Shown here piece after piece: positions 2,140-52,877 of a stretch of 64,000 nt of DNA (its first letter is position 1; every line of letters starts with the position of its first letter). Under the pieces are notes generated by a model. That model saw only the letters and a program-made list of their open reading frames with translations. It was not told where the DNA came from and did no database searches. The DNA is from Stappia sp. TSB10P1A (lineage in GTDB: Bacteria > Pseudomonadota > Alphaproteobacteria > Rhizobiales > Stappiaceae): the NCBI RefSeq assembly GCF_900185725.1, contig NZ_FYAU01000016.1, positions 62,001-126,000 on the forward strand, in the 5' to 3' direction. Position numbers and translations under genes: made by a program.

Positions 2140-5100
2140 CTATTCCGCCGGCACCTGCGCCGGCGGGCCGGAGCGGCCGGGGTCGCCGCCGCCATCGCGA
2201 TGCGGGTCGCGCTGCACGCTGACCATCCGCCGCAAATCGTCGCCGATACCGATCAGCGCCGGCACCAGCACCAGAACGAGAAGCGTGGCGGTGGCCAGGC
2301 CGAAGACGATGGTGATGGTCATCGGCATCAGGAAACGGGCCTGCAGGCTGGTCTCGAACAACAGCGGCGCGAGGCCGCCGATCGTCGTCAGCGAGGTCAG
2401 CAGCACCGCGCGCAGACGGTCCTGGGCGGAGGCGACCGCCGCCTCGGCGATGCTGCGTCCATCCTTGATATGATCCTCGAACCGGTCGACCAGGATGATC
2501 GAGTTGTTGACCAGGATGCCCGACAGGCCGAGCAGACCGACGAAGCTGAGGATGGTCAGGTCGTAGCCCATCAGGTAATGACCCGAGACCGCCCCGACGA
2601 CGCCGAAGGGGATGATCGACATCACCGCCAGCGGCTTGAAATAGCTGGCGAAGATCGCAGCGAGGATCAGATAGATCATCGACAGGGCGGCGACCATGCC
2701 GAGTTGCAGGTCGGAGAAGGCGGCGCGGCGCTCCTCCTCGCGGCCGGAATAGCGGTAGCCGACACCGTGCTTGCCGGCGAGCTCCTGCATCTTGCCGGTC
2801 TCAAGGTCGCGGACGATCTCGATGTTGGAGGTGATATCCGCATCGACATCGGCCGAGACGGAGACGGTGACGCGCCCGTCGCGGCGCTGGATCACCGAGA
2901 AGCTCTCGCGCTCGTCCAGCGTCACCACCTCGCTCAAGGGCACGAACTCGCCGCTGGGGGCCCGCAGCGACAGCTCGCGCAGGGCACCGCCGCCAAGCGC
3001 CACCTCCTGCATGACGCGGATGGTGATCTCCTCCTCGCCACGGGCAAAGCGCCGCGGGATCGAGCCTTCGAGGGCCGAGCGGATCTGGCGGGCTGCGTTC
3101 TCCACGGTGAAGCCGAGCGCCTTGCCGCGCGGGCTGAGCTCGATCACCAGTTCAGGCTTGCCATAGGGCAGGTCGTCGGCGACGCCATCGACGCCCGGAT
3201 AGGAGGTGAGCAGTTCCTGCAGTTCCAGCGAGGCTTCCTTCAGCGCCCGCGTGTCATCGCCGACGAGACGGATGTCGAGATCGCGCCCGGGAGGGCCGCC
3301 GCGCCGTTCGAAGACGGCGACACGCTTGGTGCCGGCGATCTCGGGAATGGCGCGCCGCCAGGCCTGGACGATCTCCGGGGTGCGGGTCGTACGCTGCTCG
3401 GAGGTGGTGAGCTGCACGTCGATGCTGGCGACATTGTTGCCGCGGCTGTTGCCGGACTGGCCGAGCGTTGCATAGGAGGCGACGACCAGCGTCTCGCCAT
3501 TGTCGGCCGTCAGCCGTGTCTCGGCCTCGCGCAGGGCGCCATCGATGCGCAGCAAGGCCTTTTCCGCATCCTCGACGGAAATGCCGGCGACAAAATCGAT
3601 GGTGGCGCGGATGTTTTCCGCCTCGGGCGAGGGGAAGAAGCGGAAGCCGACATGGTTGCCGCGCATCAGGCCGGCGGTCAGCAGCAGCATCGCCACGGCA
3701 ATGGCGACGGTGACATAGCGCCAGCCATAGGCCGAGCGCACGAACGCACGGAACGGCACGTCGCGGAACCAGGCGAAGCCGGCGTCGAAATTGCGGCGGA
3801 ACCAGCCGGGCTGCTCGTCGAAGGTCCGCTGCCTGCGGGCCCGGCGCATCAGCAGCAGCAGGAATTCCAGCGCCGAGGCCACCAGGAACAGCGCCACCAG
3901 CACGGCCACGTCGAAGACGATCTCGCCGAGCGCCTCGCGGCCGCCACGGGCCGGAACGGCGAGCCAGTCGAGCCAGACCGGCACGGTGATGTCCTCGCGC
4001 CCGGCAAGGCCGATGACGAACAGGCCCGGCACGCCGGCCAGCAGCACCACCCGCCACCAGTTCCATGACGGCGGGCGCGCCAGCGAATGGGCAAGATGCC
4101 CCGGCAGGACGAAGAAGCACTCGATGATGCTGGCGGCGATCACCGCAACGACGACCAGCGGCAGCACGCCCATGAGCTGGCCGATCGTGTCGCCCATCAA
4201 GGTGATCGGCATGAACGCGGCGATGGTGGTGGTCGAGGCGGCGATGATCGGCCAGAGCATGCGCCCGGCGCCCTCCTCCGCCGCCAGATAGGGACTGTCG
4301 CCCATGGCGATGCGGGTGGCGGTGTGCTCGCCGACGACGATGGCGTCGTCGACGATGATGCCGAGCGTCATGATCAGCGCGAACAGCGAGAACATGTTGA
4401 TGGTCTGCCCGGACATCCACATGAAGCCGAGCGTTGCCATCATCGCGACCGGAATACCGGCCGCCACCCACAGGGCGATGCGGCCGTTGAGGAACGCGAA
4501 CAGCACGATCACCACGACGAAAAGGCCGGAGATGCCGTTCTGCACCAGGATCATGATGCGGTCGGTGAGCGCCTCGGCGCGGACCTCGTACTTGACCAGT
4601 TCCAGCGAGGCGGGAAGCTGCGGCGCGATCTCGGCCAGGTAGCGGTCGAGAATGGCGTTGACCTTCAACTGGTCGGCGCGGGCCGAGCGCTCGACATTGA
4701 TCTCCACCGCGCGCATGCCGTCGGAATAGCCGATGACCTGGGTGCGGTCATAGCCGCGCGACACCTCGCCGACATCGCGGAGCTGGGTCTTCTCGCCGGT
4801 CGGGAAGGACTTGACGACGATGCGGCTGATCGCCTCCGGCGAGGTGGTGTCGGCGACCGCCCTCACCTGCCGCTCGACCCCGCCCTGCAGGTCGCCGGAC
4901 GGAAGGTCCCGGGTGTTGGCGGCCACGCGCTCGGAAATGTCGGCAAGCGTCATGTCGAGGCGGCGCAGCTCGCGCTCCGGCACCTTGATCACATATTCGG
5001 TGTCGCGAAAGCCGTTGAAGGAGACCTTGTCGATGCCGCGGTCGATCAGATCGTCGCGGATCTGGCGGGCGAAGGCCTTCAGCGCCTCCTCGCTGAACGG

Positions 5101-50403: not shown

Positions 50404-51723
50404 TCACACCTCGCGGATCTCCGTCGTCTCGATGACGATGCCGAAACCCTCAAGCCCCACATAGCGGCGCTGTCGGGAAGCCAGCAGGGTGATCGAGTTG
50501 ACGCCGAGATCCTTGAGGATCTGGGCACCGAGGCCGATTTCCCGCCAGTGCTCCTCGCGCGCCTGGGCCGACTGATGCTCTTCGGCCTCGGCGGCGGCAA
50601 GGTCGGTGCGCGCGCGGCGCGCCTGGCGGGCAACGCCGACGGAGCCTTCGCGCAGGTAGACGACGATGCCGCGGCCACGCGCCGCGAAATCCCGCATCAC
50701 GTCGTCCATGACCCGCGCATCGCCGAACACATCGTCGAGCACCGATTCCAGTTGCAGGCGCACCGGCACATTGCGGCCGTCGAGAATGTCGCCGAAGACC
50801 ACCGCCACGTGATGCATCGGGTCGTAGGGCGTCGAATAGGTCACCGCATAGGCCGGGCCGGCGATGGTTTCGATCGGCTGCTCCGCGACCCGCTCGACCA
50901 GCCGCTCCATCCGCTGACGCCAGGCGATGAGATCGGCGACGGACACCATCTTGAGATTGTGGCGGGCGGCGAATTCGGCCACTTCCGGCCCGCGCTTGAC
51001 CGTTCCGTCGTCGTTGACGAGTTCGGAGATCACCCCCACCTCCGGCAGACCGGCAAGACGGCAGAGATCGACCGCCGCCTCGGTATGGCCGGAGCGCATC
51101 AGCACGCCGCCCTCGCGGGCGACCAGCGGAAAGATGTGGCCCGGGCGGGCAAAATCGGCGGCCCCGGCATTGGGATTGGCGAGCCCGCGGACGGTCGAGC
51201 AGCGCTCCTCGGCGGAAATGCCGGTGGTCAGGCCATGGCGATAGTCGACCGAGATGGTGAAGGCCGTCGACAGCGGCGCGTCGTTGTCGGCAACCATCGG
51301 GTCGAGGCGCAGGCGGCGAGCGTTTTCGCGCGTCATCGGCGCGCAGACGATGCCGGAGGTGTGGCGGACCATGAAGGCCATCTGTTCCGGCGTGATCAGC
51401 GAGGCGGCAACGATCAGGTCGCCCTCGTTCTCCCGGTCGTCGTCGTCGGTAACCACAAGCATTTCGCCGCGTTCGAAGGCGCGCAGCGCCTCCGCAACGC
51501 GTGTCTGGGACATGTCCACGTTTGAAGATCCTTTCAAGCCAAGCAGGTCGTTCGGGGTCACGGCGCCACCGGTGGCGGCGGCGATCCGTTCCGCGCTTTC
51601 GCGCGAGACCCAGACGCCCGGATCGTTGCACAGGGCGGTCACAGCCGCCGGCGACAGGCCGGCGCGGCGGGCAAAGGCCGACCGGGTTTCCTTGTTGAGG
51701 GTAAGCCAAGCATCCAGACGCAT
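50404..51723 (-). CDS. ribB: HTH-RibB-RibA-like fusion (3,4-dihydroxy-2-butanone-4-phosphate synthase with DNA-binding domain)
   Basis: A 439-residue fusion. Residues 1-65 form a Cro-like helix-turn-helix (RSAFARRAGLSPAAVTALCN, then WVSRESAERIAAATGGAVTP). Residues about 71-280 are a full RibB domain: VTDDDDRENEGDLI binds magnesium and substrate, with RHTSGIVCAPM and RSGHTEAAVDLCRLAGL. Residues about 285-439 resemble RibA (GTP cyclohydrolase II) but the zinc motif CxxGDxFxxxxCxC is replaced by SVLDDVFGDARVMDD, with no cysteine, so this half is probably inactive (a RibX-like domain). An in-frame ATG at 51513 would start RibB alone, but its ribosome site is poor. Two dyads lie upstream. Confidence 0.9.
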   Translation of the reverse strand: MRLDAWLTLNKETRSAFARRAGLSPAAVTALCNDPGVWVSRESAERIAAATGGAVTPNDLLGLKGSSNVDMSQTRVAEALRAFERGEMLVVTDDDDRENEGDLIVAASLITPEQMAFMVRHTSGIVCAPMTRENARRLRLDPMVADNDAPLSTAFTISVDYRHGLTTGISAEERCSTVRGLANPNAGAADFARPGHIFPLVAREGGVLMRSGHTEAAVDLCRLAGLPEVGVISELVNDDGTVKRGPEVAEFAARHNLKMVSVADLIAWRQRMERLVERVAEQPIETIAGPAYAVTYSTPYDPMHHVAVVFGDILDGRNVPVRLQLESVLDDVFGDARVMDDVMRDFAARGRGIVVYLREGSVGVARQARRARTDLAAAEAEEHQSAQAREEHWREIGLGAQILKDLGVNSITLLASRQRRYVGLEGFGIVIETTEIREV

Positions 51724-51747
51724 GCCCGGATGCTAGTCTCGGACAAT

Positions 51748-51762
51748 TTCAGTTACAATGAA
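51748..51762. promoter_or_regulatory. 15-bp dyad, copy 1 (TTCAGTTACAATGAA)
   Basis: Imperfect palindrome matching copy 2 at 12 of 15 bases (TTCAGTNANANTGAA). It lies 24 bases upstream of the riboflavin fusion gene, in the likely promoter. Confidence 0.5.
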
Positions 51763-51775
51763 AAATATCGAGAAA

Positions 51776-51790
51776 TTCAGTGATACTGAA
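51776..51790. promoter_or_regulatory. 15-bp dyad, copy 2 (TTCAGTGATACTGAA)
   Basis: Core of a 19-base perfect inverted repeat (AATTCAGT-GAT-ACTGAATT, 51774-51792). Centre-to-centre distance to copy 1 is 28 bases. It touches the aroC stop codon. Confidence 0.55.
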
Positions 51791-51791
51791 T

Positions 51792-52877
51792 TTATCCGAC
51801 CTGCCCGCGGTGGCGCAGATAGTGATCGGCGATGACGCAGGCCAGCATCGCCTCGCCCACCGGCACGGCGCGGATGCCGACGCAGGGGTCATGCCGCCCC
51901 TTGGTCCGCACATCCACTTCCTCGCCCGACCGGGTCACCGAACGGCGCGGGGTCAGGATCGACGAGGTCGGCTTGACGGCAAAGCGCGCGACGACCGGCT
52001 CGCCGGAGGAAATGCCGCCGAGAATGCCGCCGGCATGGTTGGTGAGGAACACCGGGCGCCCATCGGCGCCGATCCGCATTTCGTCGGCATTTTCCTCGCC
52101 GGTCAGGGAAGCCGCTTCGAAGCCATTGCCGATCTCCACACCCTTGACCGCGTTGATCGACATCAGGGCGGCGGCGATCTCCTGATCGAGCTTGCCGTAG
52201 AGCGGTGCGCCGAGACCGGCCGGCACGCCCTCGGCCACCACCTCGACCACGGCGCCGACGGAAGAGCCGTCCTTGCGGATCTGGTCGAGATAGTCCGACC
52301 AGCGCGCGGCCGTCGTCGCATCGGGACAGAAGAACGGATTGTTGCCGATCTCGTCCCAGTTCCAGCGGCTGCGGTCGACCTTGTGCGGCCCGACCTGCAC
52401 CAGTGCGCCGCGCACCACGAGCCCCGGCACCACTTTGCGGGCGATGCCGCCGGCGGCAACGCGCGCCGCCGTCTCACGCGCGGATGAGCGCCCGCCGCCG
52501 CGATAGTCCCGGATGCCGTATTTGGCGTCATAGGTGAAATCGGCATGGCCGGGGCGGTAGCTCTCACGGATCTCGGAATAGTCCTTCGAGCGCTGGTCGG
52601 TGTTCTCGATCATCAGCGAGATCGGCGTCCCGGTGGTGCGCTGAACGCCGTGGTCGTCGCTCATCACGCCGGAAAGGATGCGCACCGCGTCCGCCTCGCG
52701 CCGCTGGGTCGTGTATTTCGACTGGCCGGGCTTCCGCTTGTCGAGAAAGGTCTGGATCTCGGCTTCGGTCAGTTCGATGCGCGGCGGACAGCCGTCGACG
52801 ACGCAGCCAAGCGCCGGGCCATGGCTCTCGCCCCAGGTGGTGACACGGAAAAGATGGCCGAAGGTATTGTGCGACAT
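51792..52877 (-). CDS. aroC: Chorismate synthase
   Basis: A 361-residue enzyme that makes chorismate, the last step of the shikimate pathway, requiring reduced FMN. Motifs: [14 protein letters not shown] (N-terminus), [11 protein letters not shown] (about 125-135) and RSVT near the C-terminus are typical. FMN dependence fits its position just upstream of the riboflavin gene, 68 bases apart. Start ATG at MSHNTF. Confidence 0.96.

Follow-up and report, generated by a model that had tools for sequence, protein, structure and literature searches.

A riboflavin-synthesis enzyme with a phage-type Cro head is predicted to repress its own gene in Stappia and related bacteria

The HTH-RibBX protein of Stappia sp. 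TSB10P1A, a RibB enzyme that carries a Cro-type helix-turn-helix (HTH) domain at its N-terminus, probably represses its own gene through operators that lie just upstream of it. A self-regulating enzyme had been proposed in the original prediction, and the proposal has strong support at the sequence level from putative operators that are conserved, occur together with the HTH, match its recognition helix and lie on the gene's own predicted promoter. The features are as follows, numbered within the window, which is the whole 64-kb stretch of DNA that was analysed.

50404 to 51723, minus strand: HTH-ribBX reading frame, 439 amino acids, with its ATG at 51723
51538 to 51723, minus strand: Cro-type HTH domain, residues 1–62, with the recognition helix at residues 25–33 (PAAVTALCN)
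50920 to 51492, minus strand: RibB domain, residues 78–268 (Pfam PF00926, TIGR00506)
50428 to 50895, minus strand: RibX, a cysteine-free GTP-cyclohydrolase-II-like domain, residues 277–432 (Pfam PF00925)
51517 to 51519, minus strand: candidate internal start GTG (residue 69), with AAAGGA upstream (−3.8 kcal/mol)
51511 to 51513, minus strand: candidate internal start ATG (residue 71), the alternative start named in the original prediction (−3.1 kcal/mol)
51730 to 51735, minus strand: predicted −10 box TAGCAT, six bases ahead of the ATG (TAnnnT conserved)
51753 to 51758, minus strand: predicted −35 box TTGTAA, within the proximal operator (TTGnnA conserved)
51748 to 51762, minus strand: predicted proximal operator TTCATTGTAACTGAA, 28 bp from the distal one
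51776 to 51790, minus strand: predicted distal operator TTCAGTATCACTGAA, a perfect 6+3+6 palindrome
51792 to 52877, minus strand: aroC-like gene, co-directional and upstream, ending 68 bp from the HTH-ribBX ATG

The RibB domain is complete, as had been proposed. Residues 78–268 match Pfam DHBP_synthase (PF00926) at 281.5 bits (cut-off 26.4), TIGR00506 is matched at 237.9 bits (cut-off 177.45) and RibB structures were also matched by sequence. The motifs DDDDRENEGD at residue 93 and GHTE at residue 212 are presumably the catalytic motifs of RibB. Residues 277–432 match GTP_cyclohydro2 (PF00925) at 102.2 bits, and the ribA model TIGR00505 scores 30.3 against a cut-off of 205.85. GTP cyclohydrolase II (RibA) has three zinc-binding cysteines; the four cysteines of HTH-RibBX are at positions 32, 127, 175 and 221, all ahead of RibX with none after 221, and the zinc ligands are therefore absent from this domain, for which 'RibA-like remnant' was a fair description. 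We take the combination of RibB with a cysteine-free RibA-like domain to be RibBX, a name that comes from Bradyrhizobium ORS285. The AlphaFold2 model of the full-length protein is poor (mean pLDDT 62.9). The upstream gene is presumably aroC (chorismate synthase), judged by its sequence.

The 68-bp gap ahead of HTH-ribBX contains two 15-bp palindromes, TTCAGTNNNACTGAA and a one-mismatch copy of it. In the 5.13-Mb genome the distal operator is the only exact match and the proximal operator the only match with one mismatch; a further 24 matches have two mismatches each. A wider regulon was considered and rejected, the sites with 0–1 mismatch being only the two at HTH-ribBX. The number of sites itself says little, as it is near chance: a reversed control pattern gave 20 matches at up to two mismatches versus 26 for the operator, and two at 0–1 mismatch, equal to the operator's two. 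Each of 41 genomes of the family likewise has at least one operator match at 0–1 mismatch, with counts close to those of the reversed-pattern control. Judged from the sequences, it is the placement of both sites in one 68-bp gap, together with their conservation in relatives, that is above chance and carries the weight. An exact TTCAGTNNNACTGAA was also seen distant from ribBX in five genomes of genus g3 (Pannonibacter-like; L301–L305), with no clear promoter at its position.

In relatives, the core pattern TTCA-N7-TGAA precedes the gene at 33 of 40 HTH-RibB loci and at none of 20 HTH-less ribBX loci. Ten of the 70 loci were placed in neither group, nine for another frame, a stop or an unclear start (L026, L042, L044, L045 and L047–L051) and L061 as a duplicate of L027. 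A larger set, for which 80 loci had been chosen by HTH similarity, comprises 113 distinct HTH-RibB upstream regions, many of them from close relatives (Bosea, Roseibium); the pattern is present in 101, and 49 regions have two sites. Elsewhere in the same loci it occurs four times in 620 kb. The larger set retained 179 regions after removal of HTH matches below 40 bits or not spanning model positions 4 to 55, of identical upstream regions and of those with fewer than 90 bases to the locus end; additional long frames in G485, G560:C7 and G338:C14 lie outside the locus set. Palindromicity exceeded that of dinucleotide shuffles (p < 0.05) in 51 of the 113 RibB regions and in one of 20 HTH-less controls. 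For regions upstream of other genes with the same HTH family, described below, the counts were 0/15 (SucA), 3/9 (CoaBC), 2/3 (MeaB), 0/5 (glutamine synthetase), 0/3 ('other') and 3/31 (standalone). Palindrome strength is thus modest against shuffles and was set aside as a proof in itself; conservation and linkage to the HTH are relied on instead.

The putative operators also vary with the recognition helix. All 99 upstream regions of proteins with the helix 'TALC' contain TTCA-N7-TGAA. The 14 regions belonging to other helices comprise nine with a different palindrome, two with TTCA-N7-TGAA and three (L037, L158 and L210) with no exact site of any palindrome type tested. In family group f23 the helix '.QGR.SQ' is paired with TTAGC-N3-GCTAA, in f42 'TQFC' is paired with a TTTAGT-type palindrome and in f94 'TQLC' is paired with TTAAGT or TTTAGT...ACTTAA. 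The match is not one-to-one, as one TQLC and one TGLC locus retain TTCA-N7-TGAA. In family f30, a single locus (L043) has an apparently unrelated XRE-type HTH on RibBX, with its own palindrome GTTGCCAAAATGGCAAC (GTTGCC-AAAAT-GGCAAC) upstream; this is possibly an independent invention.

A putative promoter overlaps the proximal operator. The alignment kept 59 of 72 non-redundant loci for their fit to the proximal operator (13 were dropped), and the counts that follow are for columns outside this selection criterion. Within the operator, the motif TTGnnA is conserved (second T 59/59, G 48/59, A 48/59) and is followed in the same alignment, after a 17-bp spacer, by TAnnnT (T 48/59, A 48/59, T 44/59). 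Where the operator site starts at −39, the −10 box is six bases from the ATG. This standard promoter geometry would place the transcript start at or next to the ATG, and the HTH-ribBX transcript is therefore predicted to be leaderless; there is little Shine-Dalgarno pairing at the start codons of the HTH (≤−5 kcal/mol in 3 of 56). Since the proximal operator lies on the predicted −35 box, its binding should block RNA polymerase.

RibB enzymes are homodimers, so that the fusion would present two Cro-type HTH heads to a palindrome. In the mechanism that we infer for binding, repression, the start of the transcript and the products made, a dimer of HTH-RibBX would bind the two tandem 15-bp operators of the type TTCAGTNNNACTGAA upstream of its own gene, an arrangement that would permit cooperative binding. 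Occupation of the proximal operator would exclude RNA polymerase and hold the enzyme at a steady level by negative autoregulation, and dilution of the enzyme would allow transcription to restart, with no ligand required. The mRNA would begin at or near the start codon of the HTH and be leaderless. In many relatives an in-frame start at the junction between HTH and RibB, preceded by a strong Shine-Dalgarno sequence, would add a shorter product, an HTH-less RibBX.

The junction start is conserved. Within an 11-codon window at the junction, a start codon is present in 56 of 58 non-redundant loci, versus 784 of 1503 control windows elsewhere in the genes; of the two remaining loci, L023 gave no match to the anchor motif and could not be scored. 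Anti-Shine-Dalgarno energies of −5 kcal/mol or below were found in 45 of the 56 loci versus 163 of the 784 control windows with a start codon. The ATG at residue 71 corresponds to the junction starts of relatives, and the start is positioned where HTH-less RibBX begins. Relatives with a strong signal are predicted to make the second, HTH-less isoform. Alternatively, the junction start could be a mere remnant of the ancestral ribB start, with one full-length protein made, and we give this reading somewhat less than an even chance. It agrees with the start of HTH-less homologues at the corresponding place and with the weak signal in Stappia (−3.8 and −3.1 kcal/mol; the signal is strong in Roseibium), but strong Shine-Dalgarno pairing is retained in the non-redundant loci far more often than in the control windows. 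The ATG at 51513 may be a second start rather than the sole one.

No match to any Rfam family was found in the window, in keeping with the original prediction that no riboswitch was visible at the gene, and the genome has no FMN riboswitch (RF00050) by a scan that was positive in seven of 14 control genomes. None was found in 20 HTH-less and 20 HTH-bearing ribBX loci either, and control of HTH-ribBX by an FMN riboswitch was rejected; a leaderless transcript would in any case have no room for one. A contrast had been drawn with the FMN riboswitches that usually control ribB. The absence at HTH-ribBX stands, but the contrast is weak because HTH-less ribBX loci also lack the riboswitch (0/20).

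A ligand that acts on binding through RibB or RibX is possible. In ligand-gated feedback akin to RbkR, the reading of the original prediction, ribulose 5-phosphate, GTP or a flavin would be sensed by the catalytic part, which would then switch DNA binding. This would make sense of a single chain that holds both enzyme and DNA-binding domain, of a cysteine-free GTP-cyclohydrolase-like RibX that could bind without turnover and of a genome without an FMN riboswitch. It is nevertheless rather unlikely. RibX occurs in relatives without the HTH, so that sensing was not the reason for its addition, HTH-less ribBX loci do equally without the riboswitch, and an operator found at 0–1 mismatch only at its own gene suffices for the plain control of enzyme level by autorepression that is preferred here. 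RibX may have another role. It is the genome's only match to PF00925 at E 0.001, and one gene of the creatininase family, that of the formamidase BrbF, is present (G000:C19:35284-36015; L294). The enzyme that opens GTP lacks an assignment in this genome, as does the 'BrbG' step, which is missing in the accessible part of PMC9478397. RibX is a candidate for this enzyme that is worth testing.

The HTH itself was described in the original prediction as Cro/YdaS-like and placed at residues 1–65. AlphaFold2 folds residues 1–62 into five helices (residues 3–9, 14–21, 25–33, 41–50 and 57–61; mean pLDDT 89.5) with the HTH at helices 2–3, and the Foldseek neighbours, which include the N-terminal domain of CapH, YdaS, 434 Cro and SinR (TM about 0.7), are of the Cro/CI type, with a best E-value of 0.066 and none at or below 0.001. 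The profile check was less clear: Pfam HTH_26 is matched by residues 1–70 alone at 22.2 bits (cut-off 22) and reaches 18.3 bits in the whole protein, while YdaS (16.9 bits, cut-off 30) and HTH_3 fall under their cut-offs. The enzymes HppE, HEPD and MPnS carry such a fold and are also among the Foldseek neighbours, so that the fold alone is no proof of DNA binding. The dN/dS ratios of the HTH codons, 0.014–0.156 against eight Stappia-like loci and 0.173–0.253 against four other loci of the family, indicate that they are under purifying selection, and the refuting outcome named with the original prediction, a lack of codon conservation upstream of 51513, did not occur.

The low profile scores and the shared enzyme fold would both be in line with a different regulator at the palindromes and with a fused HTH that is a structural element or a silent relic, maybe as on other enzymes. 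This is very improbable, given that the palindromes accompany the HTH (33/40, and 0/20 without it) and change with its own recognition helix, that the genome has no further site at 0–1 mismatch and that the HTH is under purifying selection. That the protein truly starts at the internal GTG or ATG and the HTH segment is an untranslated leader is scarcely credible, for although the junction start codon and its Shine-Dalgarno pairing are conserved in relatives, the dN/dS of 0.014–0.156 against Stappia-like loci implies that the segment upstream of 51513 is translated and kept as coding, it folds confidently, and the same HTH also exists in standalone form and at the head of other enzymes.

How many RibB proteins carry the domain was a question raised with the original prediction. 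A protein survey found the fusion encoded from residue 1 in 12 of 12 genomes of the family, this one included. With the HTH profile A1, matches of at least 110 bits inside a long reading frame were found in 46 of 297 genomes of the order, in six family groups, and a diverged HTH (40–45 bits) was found in six genomes of a seventh, f23. A survey of 398 genomes across the phylum scored at most 16 candidates per genome; among the HTH matches listed, all those above 41 bits are from the same class. RibB and RibX also occur together in relatives without the HTH. In a quick tree of 52 RibBX sequences (31 with the HTH, 20 without and one of the XRE type) the HTH label changes six times, and 18 of the 49 inner branches are open; the tree fits one gain followed by losses and several gains alike.

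Other alphaproteobacteria carry heads of the same HTH family on CoaBC, SucA, MeaB, glutamine synthetase and a NarJ-like protein, as judged with profile A3, whose 17 members already include CoaBC-linked heads and standalone ones. Fusion partners were assigned with Pfam in ten proteins, one or two per kind of fusion, and by short sequence motifs in the others. The fusion to CoaBC, a flavoprotein of coenzyme A synthesis, is present in nine of 30 genomes of f32, with one frame short (L197–L199, L272–L277), and that to SucA, the 2-oxoglutarate dehydrogenase E1, in 15 of 40 genomes of f61, all in one genus (L221, L279–L293). The remaining fusions are to the GTPase MeaB (three loci: L224, L230 and L232), to a glutamine-synthetase-like protein (five loci: L225, L229, L233, L234 and L239) and to the NarJ-like protein (one locus, L222).

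Candidate operators of these fusions differ from one enzyme to the next. TTGCC-N5-GGCAA with a second near copy is upstream of 16 of 16 SucA loci (counting L279, which had been classed as 'other' by motif), TTAC-N7-GTAA is at the start in six of nine CoaBC loci and TTAACC-N5-GGTTAA is upstream in three of three MeaB loci. None of these three patterns recurs in the rest of the loci concerned (about 46, 34 and 9 kb, respectively), although the patterns were picked after inspection and the loci are closely related. No convincing operator was found for glutamine synthetase (one of five loci) or for the NarJ-like gene (one locus). The SucA fusions gave no sign of a strong junction start, with energies of about −3 to −4.6 kcal/mol.

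All 17 members of the HTH profile match phrog_35, 'transcriptional repressor'. A tblastn search of a phage collection with the HTH gave no match at E 0.01, and a near phage source was not found there. One standalone TALC protein, at locus L196, has TTCAGC-TTG-ACTGAA ahead of its start.

L196, about 3061 to 3333, minus strand: gene in the Cro position, with the TALC helix and operator half-site of HTH-RibBX

Nearby genes encode a divergent XRE-type regulator, a CII-like activator and a phage-type primase. They place the gene in the Cro position of a prophage-like region, so that the HTH and its operator may plausibly have come from a phage. This region is a possible source of the HTH/operator module. 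A broader conjecture, to which we give rather less credence than doubt, is that phage Cro modules of HTH, operator and promoter were repeatedly captured onto the alphaproteobacterial metabolic genes ribBX, coaBC, sucA, meaB, glutamine synthetase and narJ-like. Each would then form a one-gene homeostat with a private operator; for ribBX, the leaderless start would give the repressor-enzyme and the Shine-Dalgarno start at the junction the plain enzyme, and the ratio of initiation would set the strength of the feedback.

Several known systems resemble parts of this arrangement. RbkR is an archaeal riboflavin kinase with a DNA-binding domain that regulates the pathway; like HTH-RibBX, it unites an enzyme of the riboflavin pathway with a DNA-binding domain in a single polypeptide. 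HTH-RibBX differs in having RibB in place of the kinase, with no riboflavin kinase domain among its Pfam matches, a Cro-type HTH and sites at 0–1 mismatch in its genome only at its own gene. PutA, NadR and BirA are self-regulating 'trigger' enzymes under ligand control that repress their own synthesis through their own DNA-binding domain, as is predicted for HTH-RibBX. Unlike them, HTH-RibBX has a small, N-terminal, phage-type Cro domain on a biosynthetic enzyme, a predicted leaderless transcript and a predicted second start that sheds the head. With the Cro-type repressors of phages and prophages (YdaS, 434 Cro) it shares the fold and the match to phrog_35, but its HTH is part of a metabolic enzyme encoded on the chromosome and is retained across whole families. 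RibBX/RibBA of Rhizobiales such as S. meliloti combines RibB with a RibX-like domain as here, one S. meliloti homologue being 65.8% identical from residue 73; in contrast to HTH-RibBX, the S. meliloti matches begin after the HTH. A DNA-binding domain is not mentioned in the accessible part of PMC9478397.

A literature search at the level of titles and abstracts, with most subscription journals outside its coverage, found no description of an HTH-RibB or HTH-CoaBC fusion, and the novelty of the HTH-RibBX fusion is provisional on that basis. An enzyme that controls its own gene is of a known kind. The phage-type Cro head, the private operators, the predicted leaderless promoter, the use on several enzymes and the predicted head-free isoform together appear to be a new build.

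For alphaproteobacteria that have no FMN riboswitch at ribB, the finding offers an explanation of the gene's control that can be tested directly. It also suggests that phage-type repressor heads may serve more generally as feedback tags on metabolic enzymes, and a private operator for each enzyme would mean little cross-talk. If the pairing of a leaderless start with a Shine-Dalgarno start is true, one gene would supply regulator and enzyme alike, in proportions that depend on the way translation starts. The lineage-specific pairs of HTH and operator could serve as a natural set of orthogonal repressors.
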